From Candidatus Zixiibacteriota bacterium (lineage in GTDB: Bacteria; Zixibacteria; MSB-5A5; GN15; FEB-12), in NCBI GenBank assembly GCA_040756055.1, contig JBFLZR010000002.1:522411-586410 (forward strand): a stretch of DNA of 64,000 nt, written 5' to 3'. Numbering within the stretch: the stretch's first letter is position 1; the number at the start of each line of letters is the position of its first letter. Below the pieces are notes generated by a model. It was not told the DNA's origin, ran no database searches, and was given only the letters and a program-made list of their open reading frames with translations. Positions 13,265 through 26,147 of the stretch are shown here, in pieces. Position numbers and translations under genes: made by a program.

Positions 13265-14557
13265 ATGCGAGTAGTGGTCCTGATTTGCTGTCTGGTGTTG
13301 TTTTTGCCGCTCGCGGCCCTCTCGGCCGACTGGCACATTCAACATCTTGACAACGGTCTAAAAGTCATGATTTTGGAGAACCATCAGGTTCCGCAGGTCA
13401 ATATCTCAACAACCATCAGAGTCGGCGCCAAGAACGAGTCGGAATATTTTGACGGCGCCACGCATTTCCTCGAGCACCTGATACTCTTTCGCGGCACCCA
13501 AGAGATGACCGGTGAGGAGCTTGGCGACGCGATGAAGAGTCACGGCGCTTATTTCAACGGCTACACTTCATCGGATTGGACCGATTTCGTGATCTCTCTT
13601 CCCGGCGAAAATCTCGATTTCGCGCTGAAGATTCACGCCGACATGCTCTTCCGCTCCAATTTCCCGGCCGCCGAGATGGATAAGGAACGGCAGGCCATTT
13701 TGGAGGAAATAAATATTTCCGAAGACAGGCCCTTCTCAACAGCCTACCGGTCATCTTTGTCGGCGCTTTACGGCAAACATCCTTACTCGAAGAACGTGCT
13801 GGGCACGAAAGAAAACGTAAGCAGCATTCCGCGCGATTCCATTTACGCCTACTACAAGCGCTACTACGCGCCCAACAATATGACGATGGTCATAGTGGGT
13901 GATGTCGCTCCTGAGTCGACGACGGAGTTGGTGAAACAGTATTTCGGCGGTTTCCCGGAGGGAACGGTGCCGAAGGATAATTATGCCGAACCTCCGAAGA
14001 GAGGCGAGGTGGTCGCTCAGGAAATCAAAAAGGATGTCGGACAGGCTTACCTGATGATGAGCACAATCGGTCCGGATATAGCAAGTTCCGACCAGTTCAC
14101 CTGCGACATCATGGCGGCCCTTCTGGGGACCGGCGAATCGAGTCGCCTTTTCAAGAAACTGAAAGATGAGCTCGGTCTGGTTTACAGCGTGGGCTTCTCG
14201 TTCTATACCAGCAAGTATGAAGGCATGCTGTTTTCCTTCGCCACCCTGGATCCATCGAACCTGGCATCGGTCGAAGAAACGATCAACGAAGTACTCAACG
14301 AGGTGCGCGAAAACGGCTTCACCGAGCAGGAGCTTCAGAAAGCCAAGAACTATATCAAGACCAGTCACTACACCTCGCTGGAGCGCGGTCTTGATCTCGC
14401 GGACAAGTACACGCAGTACGACGCCATGTACAGCCACGAATTCGTGACAGCCTACCCTGACAATATTGAGAAAGTGACGCTGGCCGAACTCAACGCGGCG
14501 GCTCAGAAGTATCTTAACACCGACTCATATGTCAAAACGACGGTGGTGCCCAAATGA
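13265..14557 (+). CDS. Zinc peptidase, M16 family (catalytic subunit)
   Basis: The product is 430 residues with a Sec signal peptide (about 1-20), so it acts in the periplasm. The inverted zinc motif HxxEH is intact (His67, Glu70, His71), and the third ligand lies about 76 residues later in 'ILEEI' (Glu147 or 148). The second M16 domain begins near residue 230. Length matches the short M16B peptidases that work as heterodimers. The next gene starts within its stop codon (ATGA overlap, 14554-14557) and encodes a homologue without the zinc motif, so the two likely form one enzyme that degrades peptides. Confidence 0.93.
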   Translation: MRVVVLICCLVLFLPLAALSADWHIQHLDNGLKVMILENHQVPQVNISTTIRVGAKNESEYFDGATHFLEHLILFRGTQEMTGEELGDAMKSHGAYFNGYTSSDWTDFVISLPGENLDFALKIHADMLFRSNFPAAEMDKERQAILEEINISEDRPFSTAYRSSLSALYGKHPYSKNVLGTKENVSSIPRDSIYAYYKRYYAPNNMTMVIVGDVAPESTTELVKQYFGGFPEGTVPKDNYAEPPKRGEVVAQEIKKDVGQAYLMMSTIGPDIASSDQFTCDIMAALLGTGESSRLFKKLKDELGLVYSVGFSFYTSKYEGMLFSFATLDPSNLASVEETINEVLNEVRENGFTEQELQKAKNYIKTSHYTSLERGLDLADKYTQYDAMYSHEFVTAYPDNIEKVTLAELNAAAQKYLNTDSYVKTTVVPK

Positions 14558-15873
14558 AGAAGACAGCAACTTACACGGTAATGGCGGTTCTTGTAGCGAT
14601 TGTTCTCGTCGGGTGCGGACACAGGGCCGGCCAGATAGAGATGGGAGCCGACAACTACGGCAAAGCGGTTCTCGATAACGGCATCACCATACTTGTCAAT
14701 TACGACGAAACCACATCGCTGACCGCGGCCCGGGTTCAGATCGGTGGCGGCGTGCTTACGGAGACCGCAGAAAACAACGGCATCACCAATCTGATGACCA
14801 ACATGCTTCTCAAGGGCAACACCGAGATGTCGGCCTCCGAGATAACCGAACGGCTGGATTTTCTCGGCGCCAATGTCAGTGTCGACTGTTCGAGGGACTA
14901 CAGTTACATTTCATTCGTCTGCCTCTCGGAAAATCTCGAGGAAGTGTTCGACATTATCGCCCGTTCGATTACCTCGCCGACCTTCCCCGAAGCTGAGTTG
15001 ACCAAGCTGAAACTGCAGGTCGAAGGAAACATAAAGGCCGAGGGCGATAACCAGGCCCAGGCCTGCAGCAAGCTGTTCTTCGCGACCATGTACGGCAACG
15101 AGGGTTATGGCCTGCCGGCGCTGGGAACGGTTGAATCAATCGAGAATATCCATATCGAGGATATCAAAGAGCATTATCGAGCCTTAATTGGAGGCAACAA
15201 TATCATATTCTCGATAGCCACGAATCTGTCGCCGCAGCGCATCCCGGCGCTGGTTGACAACCGGCTGGGCGGAATTGAACCCGATATCGACTCGAAAATC
15301 GAACCATCGCTGAAGCTTCAGGAAAACAAAGAAGGTTTCATTTCGTTCGAGCGTAATCAGTCTTTCATTTACATGGGTTTTGCGCTGCCTCATCTGAGCC
15401 TGAAGGAGGCCGCTTACATTACGCTGCTGAACGAGGTGATGGGCAACAATGTCGGCTCGCGGCTTTGGTATCTTCGTCAGAAGGAAAAACTGGCCTACGC
15501 CGTTTACACTCAGTATGCCTTTGACAAATACGGCGCCATGTTTCGGGCTGCTATCGGGACTGACACCAGCAAAGTCGCGCAGGCGCTCAGCTCGCTGGAT
15601 AGAGAGTGGAATCTGCTTGCGGAGAAAGGACTGGCCGAGCAGGAACTCGTCGATGCGAAGGTCAATATGAAAAACAATCTGATCTACCGCATCGATCGCA
15701 AGAGCAGTCGCGCCGCCAGCATGGCAACATCCGAATGGTCAGGATACAACTACCGCTTCGTACTCGAGCTGATTGACGCGGCCGACGCGATAACACTCGA
15801 TGAGATCAACGAATTCGCCAAAAACAAGCTGACCGTTGAGAACAGATACGTTTCCATCGTCGGCAAAAAATAG
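14554..15873 (+). CDS. M16-family lipoprotein, non-catalytic partner
   Basis: The product is 439 residues. The signal ends in a lipobox ('IVLVGC'), so the protein is lipid-anchored. At the place of HxxEH it has 'NLMTN', so all zinc ligands are lost. The substrate-binding Arg/Tyr region of M16 regulatory subunits is kept in the C-terminal half ('SRLWYLRQKEKLAYAVY'). This is the known division of labour in two-subunit M16B enzymes: one chain carries zinc, the other the R/Y pair. Overlap with the upstream gene implies translational coupling and equal amounts. A terminator follows. Confidence 0.92.
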   Translation: MKKTATYTVMAVLVAIVLVGCGHRAGQIEMGADNYGKAVLDNGITILVNYDETTSLTAARVQIGGGVLTETAENNGITNLMTNMLLKGNTEMSASEITERLDFLGANVSVDCSRDYSYISFVCLSENLEEVFDIIARSITSPTFPEAELTKLKLQVEGNIKAEGDNQAQACSKLFFATMYGNEGYGLPALGTVESIENIHIEDIKEHYRALIGGNNIIFSIATNLSPQRIPALVDNRLGGIEPDIDSKIEPSLKLQENKEGFISFERNQSFIYMGFALPHLSLKEAAYITLLNEVMGNNVGSRLWYLRQKEKLAYAVYTQYAFDKYGAMFRAAIGTDTSKVAQALSSLDREWNLLAEKGLAEQELVDAKVNMKNNLIYRIDRKSSRAASMATSEWSGYNYRFVLELIDAADAITLDEINEFAKNKLTVENRYVSIVGKK

Positions 15874-16073: not shown

Positions 16074-18134
16074 ATGAAAAAAACCGCACTGCTCACCGTT
16101 TTCTTGTTTGTTCTCATGGGTTTAGCTTACGCGGGTGAGATTCACGACGCCGCCGAGATGGGCGATCTTGAACGGGTCAAGTCCCTTCTCGAGGGTGATG
16201 CCGGTTTGCTCAGCGCCAGAGCGGCTGACGGAAAGACGCCTCTTCTGAGTGCCGCCTATATGGGCAACGCCGACATTGTGGCGTATCTTCTCGATATCGG
16301 CGCTGACATTAACGCCCGAACCAATTCCAACAGCACAGCATTGCACGGAGCCGGTTTCCATGGCCGTGATGAAGTGGTCCGATTACTTATCGCCAGAAAA
16401 GCGGATCTCAACGCCGCCAACAACTACGGCTTCACTCCCCTGCTGAGCTCGTGCGCGGGCGGCCGTGTCGCCAATGCGCTCATGCTGATTGAAGCCGGGG
16501 CCGACATCACCGCAAGAAATCAGGACGGTGTCGATGCTCTGCTTTTCTCAGCCTATGGTAGAAGTATCGAGTTGGTGGACAAATTGCTGACGTCCGGTGC
16601 CAGTATCGATTCCAAAAATAACAAAGGCGAAGGCGTCTTACACTATGCGGCTTTTGGCGGTAATCTCGAGTTGGTAAAGAAACTGGTAGACATGGCACAG
16701 GACCCGCTGGCAAAATCTACCGAGGGTTCGACGCCCCTGCACTCGGCCACCGGAGGGGGCTGGCCATCAGTGGTGGAATATCTGCTTGCGAAGGGAGCCG
16801 ATGTAAACGCCGCGGACGCGGAAGGCGGCACGCCCGTCCTGAATGTTGTCTGGGAACTCTACCGGCTGGAAACCGACAGTGCCGTCGCCACTTTGAGACT
16901 TCTTGTCGACAAAGGAGCAGATCTCAACTGCAAGACAGTCAATCAAGAGACTCCTCTGGTAATTGCGGTTTACCGCAGTAACCCTGAGGTGGTGAGTTTC
17001 CTGCTCGATAACAACGCCGATCCGAACATCGCCAATCCTGACGGTAATACACCGCTCATGCTGGCAGTGACTCGCGGTGATGACGACATCGCCAGGCTGC
17101 TTCTTAACAAGGGCGCGAGTGTCGATATAAAAGACAACCATTACGGCGCCACCGCGCTTCACATGGCGGCGTGCAAGGGGAATCTCGACGTTGTCAAAGT
17201 TATGCTCGAACTGGCGACCGATATAAACGTAAAGGATAACGATGGCCACACTCCCCTTTACTATGCCGGCAGATATGGACATAAACAGATTGCGCAGCTA
17301 CTTCAGTCAAACGGCGGCACGGCATCCAATTTGAACGATAGGTATGACCTCTCAGCTGCGCTCGCCGCGCAGGTCCAGCCGGGAGGAGCCATGCTGTGGT
17401 ATCTCGATCACTGCGGGTGGGCCGTAAAGACCGCCAATCACTTTATCATATTCGACTACTGGCAGAGGGGGCTCCCCACTGATCCGTCGCTGGCCAACGG
17501 ATGTATTGTTCCGTCGGAAATACTCGACCAGAATGTCGAAGTGTTCACGTCGCACACTCATCGCGACCATTATGACTCCGCTATCTTCGACTGGTACGGC
17601 ACCCTGCCGAAACTTACCTACTATTTCGGTTTCCAGGCGGAGCTTCTCCCCGAAGACGCCAGGATGGGTTACAACGGTCAGCCGTATGAGTATATCGGAC
17701 CTCGAGAACATCTGAGTTCCGACGGCATGGAGATTCACACTATCAGGGCCAACGACGCCGGGGTTGGGTTCCTGATTGAAACCGATGGGCTGAAGATTTA
17801 TTTCGCCGGGGATCATGCCGGGTGGCGGGAAGCTCAGCGGGATGGGTTTATCTCGGAAATAGACTATCTTTCGGGATTAGTCGAAAATGTCGACTTTGCC
17901 TTCGTGAACGTTACCGGCTGTCATGCCGGAGACACCATTGCTCTGGCCGAGGCAACATTCTACACGTTGGATAAGCTCCAGCCAAAGGTCATGGTGCCCA
18001 CCCATGGGAGCGGACGTGAGTGGGTTTACCAGAATTTTGCGGATAAAGTGGCAGCTCAGGGTTACCAACTGGAGATCATCTGTCCTCGGGAGAAGGGTGA
18101 CAGATTCTGTTACAGGGAAAACCAGATAATGTGA
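16074..18134 (+). CDS. Exported ankyrin-repeat protein fused to a metallo-beta-lactamase-like domain
   Basis: The product is 686 residues. A signal peptide (about 1-20) is followed by some twelve ankyrin repeats (about 24-425, recurrent 'G.TPL..A...G......LL..GAD.N'). The C-terminal part (about 435-686) is a metallo-hydrolase of the UlaG/beta-lactamase fold: HxHxDH at 494-499 ('HTHRDH'), 'YFAGDHAG' for the bridging Asp, and 'VPTHGSG' for a later His. Both modules look intact, so an active periplasmic metal-dependent hydrolase with a protein-binding arm is expected. Its substrate is unknown. It stands as its own unit with terminators before and after. Confidence 0.9.
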   Translation: MKKTALLTVFLFVLMGLAYAGEIHDAAEMGDLERVKSLLEGDAGLLSARAADGKTPLLSAAYMGNADIVAYLLDIGADINARTNSNSTALHGAGFHGRDEVVRLLIARKADLNAANNYGFTPLLSSCAGGRVANALMLIEAGADITARNQDGVDALLFSAYGRSIELVDKLLTSGASIDSKNNKGEGVLHYAAFGGNLELVKKLVDMAQDPLAKSTEGSTPLHSATGGGWPSVVEYLLAKGADVNAADAEGGTPVLNVVWELYRLETDSAVATLRLLVDKGADLNCKTVNQETPLVIAVYRSNPEVVSFLLDNNADPNIANPDGNTPLMLAVTRGDDDIARLLLNKGASVDIKDNHYGATALHMAACKGNLDVVKVMLELATDINVKDNDGHTPLYYAGRYGHKQIAQLLQSNGGTASNLNDRYDLSAALAAQVQPGGAMLWYLDHCGWAVKTANHFIIFDYWQRGLPTDPSLANGCIVPSEILDQNVEVFTSHTHRDHYDSAIFDWYGTLPKLTYYFGFQAELLPEDARMGYNGQPYEYIGPREHLSSDGMEIHTIRANDAGVGFLIETDGLKIYFAGDHAGWREAQRDGFISEIDYLSGLVENVDFAFVNVTGCHAGDTIALAEATFYTLDKLQPKVMVPTHGSGREWVYQNFADKVAAQGYQLEIICPREKGDRFCYRENQIM

Positions 18135-18366: not shown

Positions 18367-21300
18367 ATGAACAGTCAGAGTCCAACGCGCATTATCGCAC
18401 GCCGTTTATCACTGCTGATTACCACCTGTTTCTTTTTGTCGGGTGTCAGCGGGCTGATTTACGAGATCCTGTGGACGCGCATGATCGTGAAAATAGTCGG
18501 CGGCGCTCCGTTCGCGGTTGCGATTATCCTGACAATCTTCATGGGAGGCCTCGGCCTGGGCAGCTATTTGGCGAGCGGAAGGATAGACCGCATTGAGAAT
18601 CCTCTGCGACTGGTGAGGCTCTACGGTGTCCTGGAGCTTGTCGTCGCCGCCTATGCGTTGGTCTTCCCGTTTCTTCTAATGGCGTTTGAGCCACTCTATT
18701 CGATTCTGTACAACAATCTGTTTGAGCACTTCATGCTCTACAATCTTCTGACATTTCTCGGCTGTGACCTACTGCTCATCGTTCCGGTGACCTGTATGGG
18801 AGCGACCTTGCCAATTCTCTGCCGGTTTTACGTCACGCACCTGTCGCACCTTGGCACCAACGCGGGGAGGTTATACGGGCTCAACACCATTGGCGCCGCG
18901 GTTGGCGCTTTGGTGTGCGGCTTCTGGCTGATCAGCGCTCTTGGAATCTGGGGCACACTGGCGGTGGCGGTGGGCATAAATGCCCTGATAGGGCTTCTTT
19001 GCATCAGGGCCGCCGGGGGTACCAGGCCGGTCGGCGGCGCGGGAGAGCGTGAAAAGGCGGCAACGGAGATTACCCGAGAGTCGGCACCGTCAGTTCATCG
19101 CGGCGCTGTCGGCGCGGCGCTGATAATTTTCGCCATATCGGGCTTCTGCGCGATGGCCTATGAAGTTATCTGGACAAAGCTCCTTGGCCTTCTGGTCGGC
19201 TCCACTACCTATTCGTTCACGATAGTGCTGGTGACATTCATACTCGGATTGGCGCTGGGCAGTATTCTTTTCGGCCGTCTTGCCGACAGGGTCAAAAATC
19301 CAACCATGCTCTTAATAGGCACTCAAATCGCCGCGGCGGTTTTCGCCCTCGGTGTCAGCCAGTTGATAGGTAACAGCCAGCTCTTCTTTGCCAAACTGCT
19401 ATATTACACGAAGGATGAATTCGCATTGCGAAGCGCGCTCAAAGCAGCAGCGCTTTTTGTAATAATGATTTTTCCCACTATCTGTCTTGGCGCCACCTTC
19501 CCACTGGTCGGCAAAATATTTACTCGCTCTATTACCAGAGTCGGGAGGTCAATCGGGGTAGCTTATGCTATCAACACCATCGGCGCCGTAAGCGGCTCGT
19601 TTGCCGCCGGTTTCATCCTGATCCCCCTTCTTGGTAAAGAAACCAGCCTGAGCAGTGTGATCGCCTTTCAACTGGGCACGTCTCTTATAGTCACGGCGTG
19701 GCTGCTGGCAAAGAACAGGGAGAGCTTGATTAAATGGCTGCTTCTAATCATTCCCGCGGCAGCCGGTATCGCCGCGTGCTTTTACTACCCGATGTGGGAC
19801 CGTCACGCCCTGTCTTTGAGCAGGGCCCACAGTGTCGATGAGATCGCCAACGCGGTCAGGTATTACAGTTGGCCCGAGACGATTCTTCACGGCGAGCAGA
19901 TCATGTCGGATATGAACAAGGGACGGCTGGTATACTATGGCGACGGTGTTGGCGGATTCACGACGGTTCTGAGAAATTACTACGCTATGGGCGATACCTG
20001 CTATTCGATGGCCAACAGCGGTAAGGTTGACGCCTCAACTCTCGGAGACATGGGCACGCAGACGTTGCTGGGTAATCTTCCGATGCTTTTTCACCCGAAC
20101 GCCCGCAATGTGATGGTGCTCGGGCTCGCGAGTGGTATCACCGCCGGCGAGGTGCTCAATTTCCCGATTGAGAGGCTGGATGTCGTTGAGATAAATAGCC
20201 AGGTGATTGACGCCAGCGACTTTTTCCTGCCCTGGAACAATAACGTATTGAAAGACCCGCGCACCCATCTGATAATACAGGACGGACGGGCGCACCTGGC
20301 ATTGGGCGACCGGAAGTACGATGTTATAATTTCGGAACCTTCCAATCCCTGGCTGGCGGGTCTGGCCACTTTGTTCACCAGGGAAATGTTCCAATACGCC
20401 TGCGACAATCTCAATGAAGGCGGCATTTTCGTGCAGTTCTTCCACTCCTACCAGATGGATTGGGAGTCTTTCGCCCTTGTCGGACGAACCTTTGCCGATG
20501 TGTTTCCAAACGCCCTTCTGGTTTCCACGGCGCCTTCGGGCGAAGGGCCGGACTACCTGTTCGTAGGCTTTCGCGGCAACGGCCGCCTGTCGCTTGAGAC
20601 GGCCATGCGCAATTTCAAGTACGTGAAGCGATCTGAGAACGTGGATCTACGCGACCCGAGGCTTTTGTACCGCATGATTCTTTCGGAGGACCTGGTGACC
20701 CTGTTTGGAACGGGCGAGATTACCACGGACGCGCACCCACGGCTTGAATTCAGCGCACCGAAACTCCTTTATGAAACCGACCATCAAACGACCGTCAGAA
20801 ATATCAAGACCCTGGGACGGGTAAGCGCACTTACGAAGGCGATCGCCGACAGCGTGTCTTCCGACATCGATGCCCGCATTGATTTCGCCGCTTATGCTCT
20901 TTCCGTAAATCTCCCCTTCCCACGAATGGTAGACTTGCCCGCTCTGTCGCCGTCGCAGCGGGAGCGCTATTTAGATATCGCCAGGCAGCATGTAACGAAT
21001 CGTTCAACCAGTTATCTTCATTTGATCGATGAAGAGCTTAAACACCATCTGCGCCTCTTCCAGATTGAGACCCTTGAGAAAGAAATTGATATTGTCGGTA
21101 ATCCGGCGCTTTCCAATCGGTATCTCGCTGATCTGTACTACGAAGAAGGAGATATCGACAAAGCCGTCGAGCGTTATCGTCAGTCAATTGGCATGAGGCC
21201 GACGGATGGCGAGGCACACCGCAAACTAGGCGTGGCACTGACCAGGCAGGATCGCCTGGGCGAGGCTATTGCCAGTTTCGAAGAGGCAATTCGTTTGACA

Positions 21301-21675
21301 CCGCATCTCGGTGAAGCGTACACCAATCTCGGCTTCGCGCTGGCTCTTCGCGGGGAAAACCATCTGGCCAGAGAGCAATTCATCAAAGCAATCGATATCA
21401 CCCCGTCTGATGGTCGCGCTCACTATAATCTCGGGCTGGCGATGGCAAAGGGCAGTGAAACCGACGGCGCCATAGAACACTTCAGGGAAGCCTTGAGACT
21501 TGACCCGAATTTTGTCGACGCCCACTCGAATCTTGGTACCGCGCTCATTCAGAAGGGTCAACTGGATGAGGCTGCTGCACACTTCAACGCCGCCTTAAAG
21601 ATGAATCCCAATTTCGAACCCGCTCAGCGTGGTCTTGAAAGGGTTAACTTCCTTCGCTCGGTACGCGGCAATTAG
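18367..21675 (+). CDS. Membrane-bound spermidine-synthase-like protein with C-terminal TPRs
   Basis: The product is 1102 residues. The first 480 residues hold two homologous blocks of membrane helices, each opening with a 'SG..A.AYE.IWT' type sequence and a 'G.GLGS....GR..DR' turn. Residues about 570-800 form a SAM/decarboxy-SAM-binding Rossmann domain ('VLGLASGITAGEVL', 'VVEINSQV', and 'SEPSNPW' near 656 where true synthases have an acidic catalytic pair). The last 200 residues are five or six TPR units. This 'fused MFS/spermidine synthase' type is widespread, but polyamine synthesis has not been established for it. No ribosome binding site is visible; the start was chosen as the ATG before the first hydrophobic segment. 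Confidence 0.88.
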   Translation: MNSQSPTRIIARRLSLLITTCFFLSGVSGLIYEILWTRMIVKIVGGAPFAVAIILTIFMGGLGLGSYLASGRIDRIENPLRLVRLYGVLELVVAAYALVFPFLLMAFEPLYSILYNNLFEHFMLYNLLTFLGCDLLLIVPVTCMGATLPILCRFYVTHLSHLGTNAGRLYGLNTIGAAVGALVCGFWLISALGIWGTLAVAVGINALIGLLCIRAAGGTRPVGGAGEREKAATEITRESAPSVHRGAVGAALIIFAISGFCAMAYEVIWTKLLGLLVGSTTYSFTIVLVTFILGLALGSILFGRLADRVKNPTMLLIGTQIAAAVFALGVSQLIGNSQLFFAKLLYYTKDEFALRSALKAAALFVIMIFPTICLGATFPLVGKIFTRSITRVGRSIGVAYAINTIGAVSGSFAAGFILIPLLGKETSLSSVIAFQLGTSLIVTAWLLAKNRESLIKWLLLIIPAAAGIAACFYYPMWDRHALSLSRAHSVDEIANAVRYYSWPETILHGEQIMSDMNKGRLVYYGDGVGGFTTVLRNYYAMGDTCYSMANSGKVDASTLGDMGTQTLLGNLPMLFHPNARNVMVLGLASGITAGEVLNFPIERLDVVEINSQVIDASDFFLPWNNNVLKDPRTHLIIQDGRAHLALGDRKYDVIISEPSNPWLAGLATLFTREMFQYACDNLNEGGIFVQFFHSYQMDWESFALVGRTFADVFPNALLVSTAPSGEGPDYLFVGFRGNGRLSLETAMRNFKYVKRSENVDLRDPRLLYRMILSEDLVTLFGTGEITTDAHPRLEFSAPKLLYETDHQTTVRNIKTLGRVSALTKAIADSVSSDIDARIDFAAYALSVNLPFPRMVDLPALSPSQRERYLDIARQHVTNRSTSYLHLIDEELKHHLRLFQIETLEKEIDIVGNPALSNRYLADLYYEEGDIDKAVERYRQSIGMRPTDGEAHRKLGVALTRQDRLGEAIASFEEAIRLTPHLGEAYTNLGFALALRGENHLAREQFIKAIDITPSDGRAHYNLGLAMAKGSETDGAIEHFREALRLDPNFVDAHSNLGTALIQKGQLDEAAAHFNAALKMNPNFEPAQRGLERVNFLRSVRGN

Positions 21676-22188: not shown

Positions 22189-22468
22189 TTTCTCTTAAGT
22201 TCACGGCGATAGCATCGTTGTTGATGATCGCCTCGATTATTTTCTTGCGGCCGCTGTGGACCAGACGCTGAACTGTCGCCCGGGATACACCCATGATAAG
22301 TCCGGCCTGGTACTGGTCGAGCTGCTCGACATCGCACAGGCGCAGGGCCTCGAATTGGTCGAGCGAAAGCACGCTGGTTTGGATTTCCCCCAGCGGTATC
22401 CCCCGGGGCTTATAAATCCGATCGGCATCGTATCGGCGGCAAAAACGGGTCTTCTTCGGCCTGGCCAC
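22121..22468 (-). CDS. DUF134 helix-turn-helix protein
   Basis: The product is 115 residues. The N-terminal part carries the basic 'ARPKKTRFCRRYD' stretch and a 'PRGIPLGE' turn, and residues 40-90 form a sigma-region-4-like helix-turn-helix ('LDQFEALRLCDVEQLDQYQ', 'GVSRATVQRLVHSGRKKI'), the layout of DUF134. The GTG at 22468 is chosen as start because GAGAGGAG lies 6 bases upstream; a longer frame reaching 22519 would start before the predicted transcription start. DUF134 genes regularly sit next to NifX-like genes, as here. A role as a DNA-binding autoregulator is inferred from the palindrome in its promoter. Confidence 0.9.
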   Translation of the reverse strand: MARPKKTRFCRRYDADRIYKPRGIPLGEIQTSVLSLDQFEALRLCDVEQLDQYQAGLIMGVSRATVQRLVHSGRKKIIEAIINNDAIAVNLRESEGCHVGMHSHQRKHRSGRHRI

Positions 22469-22485
22469 TTGCGGCTCCTCTCTCG

Positions 22486-22505
22486 TTATGTGCATATGCA
22501 CATAA
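22486..22505. promoter_or_regulatory. Perfect 20-bp palindrome overlapping the transcription start
   Basis: The sequence TTATGTGCAT is followed directly by its reverse complement. It begins three bases after the -10 box of the DUF134 promoter and covers the predicted start of transcription, a classical repressor position. Confidence 0.8.
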
Positions 22506-22507
22506 TC

Positions 22508-22536
22508 ATTATCGGCCACACGGGCATTTTTGTCAA
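22508..22536 (-). promoter_or_regulatory. Sigma-70 promoter of the DUF134-NifX-like operon
   Basis: On the minus strand TTGACA, a 17-base spacer and GATAAT (11 of 12 consensus positions). The predicted start, near 22501, gives a leader of about 33 bases to the GTG at 22468. Confidence 0.85.
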
Positions 22537-22705
22537 GGGTTTATTTACGGTCTCGAAAATAGCTCTCCCTGACAAAAAAACTGTTCATTTGCACGCTCGG
22601 GCCACCGGTCGTATATTCCGGTACCCGGCGCGGGTGGACCAACCCCGATTGGCGGCCTCTCGGCCGGTTACAACTCAAAGCGATATTCAGAGGAGTATGA
22701 TATTT

Positions 22706-23626
22706 ATGAACTTGCGACGACTTCTTACTCTTGTTCTTGGCACGATAGCCGTGCAGGCGGCTCTTTTGGGATGCGGCAAAGAGCCGGCTGATAACGGCAG
22801 TCCGGCCGATTATCTGGTTGCCGAGGTTGATTCCATCGGGCTGCAAAGAAACTCCGAGATCAGAACCTTCGTCGGAGACTCGCTGTATGAGTATATCGAT
22901 GGCGGCGCGGAGTTGTACCACGCCTATGATTTCGTCGACGTGTCGACGGCAGATTATTTGACCAACGGCAGAGAGATGGTTGTGGACATCTACAGATTCG
23001 ACTCGGAGGATAACGCTTTCGGCCTGTTCTCCACACTCCGTCCCGACGGTGTCGCCACGGCTGGTACAGGGGCGGCGAGCTTCGCCTCGCCTACCAATGT
23101 CGTTGCCGTGAAGGGCGTGTATGTGCTGATGGTTATAGCTTACGAGGACTCCGATGAGACCCGCGAGGCCATTTTGAGAACGGCGTATTATTTTGGCAAC
23201 ACGATGCTCGGGACCACCAACATCCCCAAGACTTTTGACCTCTTCCCGAAAACAGACGGAGTCGCGGCTACTGAAAAGATGTACGCCGAGTCCTTTCTCG
23301 GCCGGAGTTTTCTTACCGATGTTTACAGCCGAACGTATTTGTTCGGCACTGACACCCTCATTCTGTTTTTGACTCCGGACAAATCGGGCCAGAAGTACCT
23401 TGAGTGGACCCAGCAGCTTAAGCCCTCGGACACGGCAGGTATCGCCCTGCCGGCACTTCCCTTTGATGCAGACTATTCTCTGAGATTTCAAGACAATTAC
23501 TACGGTGTGATTGTGGCCGGCTTGAAATCGGGATGGCTGGCCGGGGTGGTGGGTTACACGCAAGGTCACGAGCCGGAGATCGCCGATTGGCTGAATTCAC
23601 TCTCCGAGCCTGTTGGTCAGTATTGA
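22706..23626 (+). CDS. DUF6599 family lipoprotein
   Basis: The product is 306 residues. A signal with lipobox ('AALLGC') is followed by the features of DUF6599: an early 'YEYIDGGAELYHAYDF' segment and a 'VDIYRFDSEDNAFGLFSTLR' segment. Function is unknown; an association with respiratory or redox genes has been seen in other genomes but is not evident here. The start at 22706 is preferred because AGGAG lies 10 bases upstream; an ATG three codons earlier (22697) is almost touching that site. The gene converges with the reductase operon, only 23 bases separating the stops. Confidence 0.85.
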   Translation: MNLRRLLTLVLGTIAVQAALLGCGKEPADNGSPADYLVAEVDSIGLQRNSEIRTFVGDSLYEYIDGGAELYHAYDFVDVSTADYLTNGREMVVDIYRFDSEDNAFGLFSTLRPDGVATAGTGAASFASPTNVVAVKGVYVLMVIAYEDSDETREAILRTAYYFGNTMLGTTNIPKTFDLFPKTDGVAATEKMYAESFLGRSFLTDVYSRTYLFGTDTLILFLTPDKSGQKYLEWTQQLKPSDTAGIALPALPFDADYSLRFQDNYYGVIVAGLKSGWLAGVVGYTQGHEPEIADWLNSLSEPVGQY

Positions 23627-23649: not shown

Positions 23650-24876
23650 TTACGTGTAAATAGCTTTCAGCTCGTCGATCCGCGAAGCAATCTCGACGCT
23701 GTTTGCGCATATCGCCCGGCAGGTGGAACAATCTTTACATACTCTGAGATCACTGCCTGAGGAGATGCTGTCGAGAGTCACACGGGCCCGATATAGATCG
23801 CCGTACTGGGCCGCATACATGTGAACACGCATCAGGGTTGGTATGTCGACTTTTTTCGGGCAGTAGGCCAGACAGCTTTTGCATTGCCGGCAGAACCCCA
23901 TGCCGAGCTTCACACTGTTATCGCTGAGGAACCGTTCTTCCTCGGGTGTGTACTCCAGATCGCGGGCGACAGAGAAATCCTGCCTCATGTGTTCATAACT
24001 CATGAAACCCGGCACGCTTGTACTGACAGCCGGGTTGCGCAGAACCCACTTGATGCACGCGGTCGCTATCGCGGCGCTGGAATGGTCACGGCGCGATGAC
24101 TCGTTGGGCCAGCGGCTTCCCCCCGCCATCATCTTCATGGCGATAACGCCGACTCCCTTTGCCGCGGCGTTTTTTATCGCGGCGAGAAGCTTGCTATCAT
24201 CGGACAACGTGAAATTGAACGTTGTCATAACGACATCAAAGTAGCCCCCGTCCGCTACGGCATTGATCGCTTCAGCCATGTTGGAGTGCATAGACACGCC
24301 GGCATGGCGAATCTTTTGTTGCTGCTTGAGGTACTCCAACGCCTCAAGCATGGCCGGGTTGTGGGTGTTTCGGGGATCGTGACCCTCCCAGACATAATAA
24401 ATGTCGATGTAATCGGTCTTGAGACGGCTAAGACTGGCCTCACACGCGGCAGTAATTTTCCTTTTGCATTCTGATGCCGACAGGCCGGCAAACGCTTCGA
24501 CATCGTCATTGCCCGTGCCAATGATTACCTTGTCGCGCACTTGCAGTTTATTGAGCACTCCGGCGGCAACCGTTTCGATACGACCGAGCTGATAGTTCCC
24601 GGAGAGATTGAAGTAACGCACACCAATCTCATAGGACGCCTGTATGATCTCGGGATTCTCGGAATTCATCACGCCAATGGACACGATGGGAACGTGAATA
24701 TCAGTGCGCCCGAGCTTGCGATAGATTATTTCTTTGCTGGAACCGTCGGCCTTATCATCAGCTCCCTCAGCCAGGGTTATGGCGGGATTCAGATTGAGAA
24801 GTCCTGCCGAGAGGAGGGAGCCGCCCGCCGCGGATAGAAATCCGCGTCTGGAAATAGTCCTCTTCGATCCCGACAT
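23650..24876 (-). CDS. Tat-exported aldo/keto reductase-like 4Fe-4S protein, catalytic residues mostly lost
   Basis: The product is 408 residues. A twin-arginine signal ('ISRRGFLSAAGG') leads to an aldo/keto reductase barrel (about 50-325) and a C-terminal ferredoxin domain with two CxxCxxCxxxC sets ('CRQCKSCLAYCP', 'CKDCSTCRAIC'). Compared with the neighbour at 24918-26147, the catalytic Asp is Asn (in 'FNLSGNYQLG'), the Lys is Gly ('IGTGND') and the His is Trp ('YYVWEG'); only the Tyr remains. The barrel may therefore bind a ligand or cofactor without normal reductase chemistry, while the clusters suggest electron transfer. It is the last gene of a three-gene operon. Confidence 0.88.
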   Translation of the reverse strand: MSGSKRTISRRGFLSAAGGSLLSAGLLNLNPAITLAEGADDKADGSSKEIIYRKLGRTDIHVPIVSIGVMNSENPEIIQASYEIGVRYFNLSGNYQLGRIETVAAGVLNKLQVRDKVIIGTGNDDVEAFAGLSASECKRKITAACEASLSRLKTDYIDIYYVWEGHDPRNTHNPAMLEALEYLKQQQKIRHAGVSMHSNMAEAINAVADGGYFDVVMTTFNFTLSDDSKLLAAIKNAAAKGVGVIAMKMMAGGSRWPNESSRRDHSSAAIATACIKWVLRNPAVSTSVPGFMSYEHMRQDFSVARDLEYTPEEERFLSDNSVKLGMGFCRQCKSCLAYCPKKVDIPTLMRVHMYAAQYGDLYRARVTLDSISSGSDLRVCKDCSTCRAICANSVEIASRIDELKAIYT

Positions 24877-24917
24877 TCATCCTCCTTAGCCAGGCACTGA
24901 CCCTATGCCCGGGCTTG

Positions 24918-26147
24918 CTAACAGTACATGGTTTTGAGCTCGTCGATGCGCCGGGCAATATCAACTGTGTTGGCGCATTCGGCGCTGCACAGTGAGCAAC
25001 TGCTGCAAACATTCAGTCCGACGTTATCAGAGATTTCCTCAAGGGTAGTCCGGGCGTGGTGAAAGTTGCCATACTGGGCGCCGTACATGTGTACGCGCAT
25101 CAGGGTCGGTATGTCTACACCTCCGGGACAACTCGCCAGGCACTTCCGGCACTGGCGGCAATAGCCGAGGCTCATCCTCACATTGTTATCCGAAAGGAAT
25201 TTCTTCTCCTGTTCGGTGTATTCCAGATTGCGCGCGACAGAAAAATCCTCGCGCATATGCTCGAAACTGGTGAAGCCGGGAATACTCGTATGAATGTGTT
25301 CATTGCGCATCACCCATTTGAGGGCGGCGGTGGCGATAGTCGAGCCGGAGTAGTCTTTTCTCGAAGCCGGGTTGGGCCAGCGGGCGCCGCCGGCTTGAGT
25401 CTTCATAGCCACTATACCCACGCCTTTTTGAGAGGCGTTCTTGATTGCTTCCAGCAGGGCGGTGTCGTCGGCCATAGTGAAGTTTATGGCGGTCAAGACA
25501 ACATCGTAGAAGCCGCCATCGACGACCGCGTTGATGACATCCGCCATATTCGTATGCGTCGACACCCCAACCCAGCCAACTTTCCCCTGCTGTTTCAGTC
25601 GGGTGAGTCCTTCGATGAGTCCGGGGTTCTTTACCGTCTCAGCATCGCTTACATCGTGAATGTAAAGTATCTCAACGCGATCCGTTCCCAGTCGCCCCAG
25701 GCTCGCCTCGCAGGCGGTGATCAGCTTCTGCGTTAATTCATTCGGCTGAAGCCCCTGGCGTTGTCCCTGCGCCATGACTTTCGTGCCGATGATTACCTTG
25801 TCTCTGACGCCAAGCTTTTTGATCACGCTACCCACCATCTGTTCGTTGCGCCCGAACTGATAGTAAGCGGCGGTATCGAAATGGCGGATGCCGAGTTCGT
25901 ATGAGGCCTGTACTATTTCCGGATTGTCGGCGTTCATCACACCCATCGAGACAACGGGCATTCTCAGGCCGGTTCGGCCCAACACGCGTTCGATAATCCG
26001 GCCGCCGGCACTCGAGTCGGCCGACGCTGAAGTCGTCTGGGCCAGGCCCGTTCGAGCCGAAAGGCTCACCACACCCGCTGAAACAAGACCGGTCGCGGCG
26101 GTTGATAGAAACTTACGCCGGCTAAAGTCTGAGTTGCGTTCAGGCAT
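24918..26147 (-). CDS. Tat-exported aldo/keto reductase with 4Fe-4S clusters
   Basis: The product is 409 residues. A twin-arginine signal ('FSRRKFLSTAATG') shows export of the folded protein to the periplasm. The barrel keeps the catalytic tetrad: Asp and Tyr in 'FDTAAYYQFG', Lys in 'IGTKV', His in 'LYIHD'. The C-terminal domain carries two CxxCxxCxxxC cluster motifs ('CRQCRKCLASCP', 'CSSCSLCSAEC'). Fusion of a reductase with clusters outside the cytoplasm, where NADPH is lacking, suggests that electrons come through the clusters; this is inference. GGGAG precedes the start. It lies 38 bases after the hydrolase gene and 41 before its paralogue. Confidence 0.9.
   Translation of the reverse strand: MPERNSDFSRRKFLSTAATGLVSAGVVSLSARTGLAQTTSASADSSAGGRIIERVLGRTGLRMPVVSMGVMNADNPEIVQASYELGIRHFDTAAYYQFGRNEQMVGSVIKKLGVRDKVIIGTKVMAQGQRQGLQPNELTQKLITACEASLGRLGTDRVEILYIHDVSDAETVKNPGLIEGLTRLKQQGKVGWVGVSTHTNMADVINAVVDGGFYDVVLTAINFTMADDTALLEAIKNASQKGVGIVAMKTQAGGARWPNPASRKDYSGSTIATAALKWVMRNEHIHTSIPGFTSFEHMREDFSVARNLEYTEQEKKFLSDNNVRMSLGYCRQCRKCLASCPGGVDIPTLMRVHMYGAQYGNFHHARTTLEEISDNVGLNVCSSCSLCSAECANTVDIARRIDELKTMYC

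Follow-up and report, generated by a model that had tools for sequence, protein, structure and literature searches.

A tandem pair of predicted exported iron-sulfur aldo-keto reductases, one with a degenerate catalytic tetrad, in a genus of Candidatus Zixiibacteriota

The locus and its two paralogues

The window is the whole stretch of DNA that we analysed, 64,000 nucleotides from a Candidatus Zixiibacteriota genome. Two adjacent genes on its minus strand, called A and B here, encode paralogous reductase-like proteins. The features around them are as follows.

24918-26147, minus strand: A, 409 amino acids; aldo-keto reductase (AKR) barrel, C-terminal domain for two predicted [4Fe-4S] clusters, N-terminal twin-arginine motif; tetrad intact
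23650-24876, minus strand: B, 408 amino acids; tandem paralogue of A; tetrad N/Y/G/W; all eight cluster cysteines present
24881..24887, minus strand: Shine-Dalgarno-like AAGGAGG, read from the sequence by motif, 4 bases 5' of the B start codon
26186..27757, minus strand: alpha/beta-hydrolase-like gene (Pfam PF03403) with C-terminal TPRs and a signal-peptide-like N-terminus; likely the first gene of the operon
22256..23626, plus strand: DUF6599 (PF20244) lipoprotein-like gene, convergent to B

The open reading frame coordinates of A and B were exact on re-reading. Thirty-eight bases separate the hydrolase-like gene from A, and 41 separate A from B. The real start of the DUF6599 gene probably lies far inside the open reading frame as listed. 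A promoter and terminator scan returned 11 promoter-like sites in the region against 4.6 in shuffles, and we build no claim on these. A search of a plasmid collection gave no match.

A and B are 55% identical across 401 residues with a single gap, so they align throughout, as an earlier note on this sequence had stated. Both score far above the cut-off of 24 for the AKR profile PF00248 (120.6 bits for A and 92.4 for B). The structural comparison with known AKRs that the same note had proposed gave matches for both models over residues ~50-325, with Z ~24. These models are of modest confidence, having been built from six sequences per alignment, with mean pLDDT of 59.7 (A) and 57.6 (B) and values below 50 along most of the Fe-S domain. 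By profile and by barrel fold, both proteins belong to the aldo-keto reductase superfamily.

The catalytic residues were as first described: A has Asp91, Tyr96, Lys123, and His164, and B has Asn, Tyr, Gly, and Trp at the aligned sites. In an alignment with rice L-galactose dehydrogenase, the four residues of A pair with its Asp, Tyr, Lys, and His. A thus carries the canonical AKR tetrad, whereas B, with Asn/Tyr/Gly/Trp, does not; the roles of these residues are taken from the excerpts of PMC8524200. The cluster ligands also agreed with the earlier description, with eight cysteines in A (C330, C333, C336, C340, C381, C384, C387, C391) each matched in B. They fall into two CxxCxxCxxxC motifs in each protein, and all eight are present in 64/64 rows of the family, counting the B copies and one fragment (G016). 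The Pfam model Fer4_17 matches A above its cut-off (27.5 vs 22.2), and the Fer4 matches of B fall below theirs. Both proteins would be expected to assemble their clusters.

Near the N-terminus, A and B have the twin-arginine sequences SRRKFLS and SRRGFLS, each followed by a hydrophobic stretch, and RR is present in 42/42 family rows that have an N-terminus. A search of A and B with Tat profiles gave nothing above cut-off; the sole signal-type match was TIGR02811 on A, itself sub-cut-off. Tat export of both proteins is predicted from the motif. We therefore describe A as a putative exported AKR, its barrel fused to a ferredoxin domain predicted to hold two [4Fe-4S] clusters.

Distribution of the pair

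We surveyed 132 genomes of Candidatus Zixiibacteriota at E <= 1e-40. Matches came from 35 genomes, and all 43 were read, one of them being the fragment G016. A wider search at E <= 1e-30 added 20 regions, from which 21 proteins were read; this wider set does not include matches in G268 and G337, owing to open reading frame selection, or G290, G153, G142, and G363.

The tandem A-B pair is present in all four genomes surveyed from the genus of the window (G000, G025, G026, G027), with identical neighbours each time and the gene order hydrolase, A, B, DUF6599. Related genomes, e.g. G051, G111, G114, and G015, have the hydrolase-like gene, A, and DUF6599 without B. No tandem pair was found in the other 31 family-bearing genomes of the phylum. 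Two unlinked copies occur in G017, G023, G088, and G089, all with Lys and His kept. Outside the phylum, G188 has two tandem copies and G275 three, with intact tetrads in 5/5; in G275 (L108 6071-10255) the three consecutive genes adjoin a DUF6599 gene. The pairing of degenerate and intact copies in tandem is thus restricted to one genus, and elsewhere most relatives occur as one copy with its tetrad intact, at cut-offs (1e-40 and 1e-30) that highly divergent degenerate copies may escape. Of the expectation that the pair would recur in other genomes, the linkage held, in 4/4 genomes of the genus; the breadth did not, as the pair is rare and found in that genus only.

The second copies differ among themselves. 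Their tetrads read NYGW (G000), DYGH (G025), SYGY (G026), and NYSY (G027), so that Lys123 is lost in 4/4, Asp91 and His164 are each lost in 3/4, and Tyr96 is kept in 4/4. All eight cysteines are kept in each (32/32). Lys, Tyr, and His are invariant in the phylum's 38 other full copies, three of which have Glu in place of Asp. Across the 59 rows other than B, from which G016 is also excluded, Lys and Tyr are each present in 59/59 and His in 57/59, and the Asp position holds Asp in 56 and Glu in 3. G185 has four Fe-S AKR copies, two of which have Lys or Tyr in place of the tetrad His and keep Asp, Tyr, and Lys:

L112 399-1583 and L113 4679-5911: His-replaced Fe-S AKR copies of G185

Origin and evolutionary rates

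A branch with support of 97/91 sets the four degenerate copies apart from the rest of a 42-protein tree. Support for the B group is lower in a tree of the barrel only (90/89). A tree of the Fe-S domain only (84 columns) does not separate A from B and is uninformative on a single origin. Taken together, support for a single origin of the degenerate clade is moderate. The one-branch grouping, the loss of Lys123 in every member, and the open frames despite near-saturation place the pair beyond chance.

The two halves of B have evolved differently. For the barrel, the mean corrected distance across the four genomes is 0.365 in A and 0.718 in B, a ratio of 1.97 (1.63-2.39). For the Fe-S domain it is 0.456 and 0.492, a ratio of 1.08 (0.85-1.40). 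The ratio of these two B/A ratios, barrel over Fe-S domain, is 1.81 (1.31-2.47), and it was at or below 1 in 0.05% of 2000 bootstraps. The block around Asp and Tyr (90-109) has a mean divergence of 0.00 among the four A and 0.61 among the four B. Relaxed constraint in B is therefore confined to the barrel, provided that gene conversion has not levelled the ferredoxin domain; such conversion would also depress the apparent rate of B there.

All four second copies have full-length open reading frames. Fourfold sites are close to saturated in both A and B (0.55-0.71 for B, vs a random expectation of 0.69), and the first and second codon positions of B differ by 0.27-0.32. Few changes at these positions beside near-saturated fourfold sites indicate that B is an old, maintained gene. 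The only B-specific fixed site is A93S.

A history consistent with these data would begin with tandem duplication of an A-type gene in the ancestor of the genus. B would then have lost its tetrad stepwise, beginning with Lys and followed in most species by Asp and His, while its fold, its export motif, Tyr96, and every cluster ligand were retained. Given its residues, we class B as a maintained AKR pseudoenzyme.

Neighbouring genes and a possible electron source

We counted neighbours in 38 phylum regions around a family gene, in two of which (G084, G039) the open reading frame picker missed the family gene itself. The hydrolase-like gene is nearby in 28/38, and DUF6599 in 17/38 as well as in 8/20 of the further regions. 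In the window's hydrolase-like protein the nucleophile serine is replaced in the elbow GCGWGG, with G237 and G241 kept; the elbow was placed from the family alignment and the coordinates of profile matches to cutinases and polyester hydrolases, not from a residue-level alignment. Among the 27 readable homologues in the phylum, this position is Ser in 2, Gly in 17, and Ala in 4. These proteins thus look like pseudohydrolases whose genes are linked to that of the Fe-S AKR.

G124, G123, G300, and G336 are distant relatives in which a NapH/NapG-like polyferredoxin, DUF362, and DUF6599 are encoded beside the family gene. Of these assignments, those for G123 (DUF362 and polyferredoxin) come from sequence clustering only and that for G300 (polyferredoxin) from Pfam Fer4 domains alone. 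In G124 and G336 the polyferredoxin matches models of NapG and of NapH, the quinol dehydrogenase ferredoxin subunit, in every case below the curated cut-offs. Loci combining these genes and a related locus of the window's own genome are:

L144 7026-11725: Fe-S AKR, DUF6599, DUF362, and NapH/NapG-like fusion
L143 1217-6251: the same combination
L124 398-5065: the same combination
L118 3666-8411: the same combination
L139 2328-10775 (G000:C6): DUF362 and NapH/NapG-like genes in an AmmeMemoRadiSam locus

The first four are likely quinol-linked periplasmic redox operons. These neighbours suggest a route from quinol to a NapH/NapG-like protein to the exported AKR, and the electron source of the pair may by analogy be the quinol pool through such a protein. 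No NapH/NapG-like gene was found at the pair's locus in the window's genus, where such genes are unlinked; the homologue in the window's genome (G000:C6:158145-159674) lies within the AmmeMemoRadiSam locus, a point against the leading explanation of B given below. A quinol-to-periplasm route is possible for this widespread family.

Comparison with known systems

The nearest solved structures are L-galactose dehydrogenases and AKR11C1/AKR14A1, which share the barrel (~50-325, Z ~24); A shares their canonical tetrad too. Sequence matches to solved AKR chains, at ~20-27% identity, are confined to the barrel, and none extends into the two-[4Fe-4S] domain. Exported Fe-S AKRs of other bacterial lineages, a family that we take to be COG1453, have the same domain order, tetrad, and eight cysteines, and in most the twin-arginine motif; unlike the A-B arrangement they are mostly single copies, and none of those examined has lost the Lys, as B has. 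We recognised no experimental work on the Fe-S AKR family or on DUF6599 in the open-access literature searched.

Known AKR-fold proteins that act by binding or regulation include Kv-beta and SmbA, and KidO likewise has a non-enzymatic role. To our knowledge, none of the three has a ferredoxin domain, and we know of neither a ferredoxin domain nor an export motif in DRR, the reductase domain of reticuline epimerase. According to the excerpts of PMC8524200, DRR resembles B in being an AKR without the tetrad His and Lys and in standing near an intact paralogue, but it is an active imine reductase within a P450 fusion. Judged by their residues, A and B make up a lineage-specific pseudoenzyme pair.

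Role of the second copy

B probably serves A without catalysis of its own, as a partner in electron relay or in assembly. A would carry out the substrate chemistry, and the clusters of B would supply A with electrons, take them from it, or else finish its oligomer; contact between A and B and the direction of electron flow are both presumed, and an A/B heterodimer is plausible. The ferredoxin half kept at the rate of A, beside a relaxed barrel, fits the prediction of the earlier note that one subunit passes electrons. The replacements vary by species and A93S is the sole site fixed and specific to B, so that nothing points to a new active site common to the four B. This, with the retention of the cluster-bearing part, favours a role independent of the pocket. 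The strong ribosome-binding motif of B and its 41-base distance from A were also counted in favour of a partner role. Counting against it is the chemistry: the single electrons of [4Fe-4S] clusters alone do not suit the hydride chemistry of a nicotinamide AKR. On balance, a non-catalytic periplasmic partner, relaying electrons to or from A through its clusters or completing the oligomer of A, is our leading explanation, held with a little less than even confidence. A more specific version is possible and more tentative: B as a dedicated periplasmic relay, with its barrel a scaffold and its ferredoxin half under selection, in an operon of one active enzyme and two pseudoenzymes, B and the upstream hydrolase-like protein without its nucleophile, that would form an export-side redox complex.

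The strongest competitor, in our view unlikely, would make B a subunit for structure, regulation, or ligand sensing, its barrel a scaffold or binding module and electron transfer secondary. Kv-beta and SmbA, which binds c-di-GMP and ppGpp, lie near both models (Z ~22-23, rmsd ~3-4, ~250-260 aligned residues), and 34 of 45 family-conserved barrel positions are retained in all four B, such positions being counted over 37 rows with the fragment G016 and the long-branch G124 removed. It is the ferredoxin domain with its eight cysteines, however, rather than the barrel, that is held at the rate of A, and we saw no new ligand pocket common to the four B. Less probable again is an active reductase of changed chemistry, e.g. 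C=N or C=C reduction, in which Lys and His have become dispensable. B retains Tyr96, His198, Asn222, and Lys249 in 4/4 copies, and tetrad loss by itself is no proof of inactivity, since DRR works without both residues (His to Pro, Lys to Met) and AKR1D1 has His to Glu, both according to the excerpts of PMC8524200. Against such an enzyme, the tetrad sites vary by species, and few parts of B have diverged as much as the Asp/Tyr block.

The retained ferredoxin domain would serve equally well if B were a periplasmic electron carrier for partners other than A, for which the NapH/NapG-like protein encoded elsewhere in the genome is a candidate; its tandem position with A in 4/4 genomes speaks against this, and we rate it as improbable, slightly below changed chemistry. 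A decaying duplicate on its way to becoming a pseudogene would account for the stepwise tetrad loss and the faster evolution of the barrel, and we consider it very improbable. As a pseudogene B was rejected, on the open frames in 4/4 genomes, the 32/32 cysteines, and the near-saturated fourfold sites beside first and second positions at 0.27-0.32.

The pair is a natural experiment in which one domain of a redox enzyme has been freed from selection and the other has not, and comparing A with B makes the role of the ferredoxin domain in exported Fe-S AKRs testable.

Other features of the window

The window holds a second pair of adjacent intact and degenerate paralogues, from an unrelated family without redox function:

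13265-14557 and 14554-15873, plus strand: overlapping M16 peptidase genes, active and inactive by the HxxEH motif

The two-subunit pattern to which the reductases had been likened is present there, with HFLEH in the first protein and no HxxEH in the second. Two further plus-strand genes have unusual domain combinations. The product of 16074-18134 has ankyrin repeats followed by a metallo-beta-lactamase-like stretch at the C-terminus, and that of 18367-21675 is an MFS/spermidine-synthase-like fusion with C-terminal TPRs.
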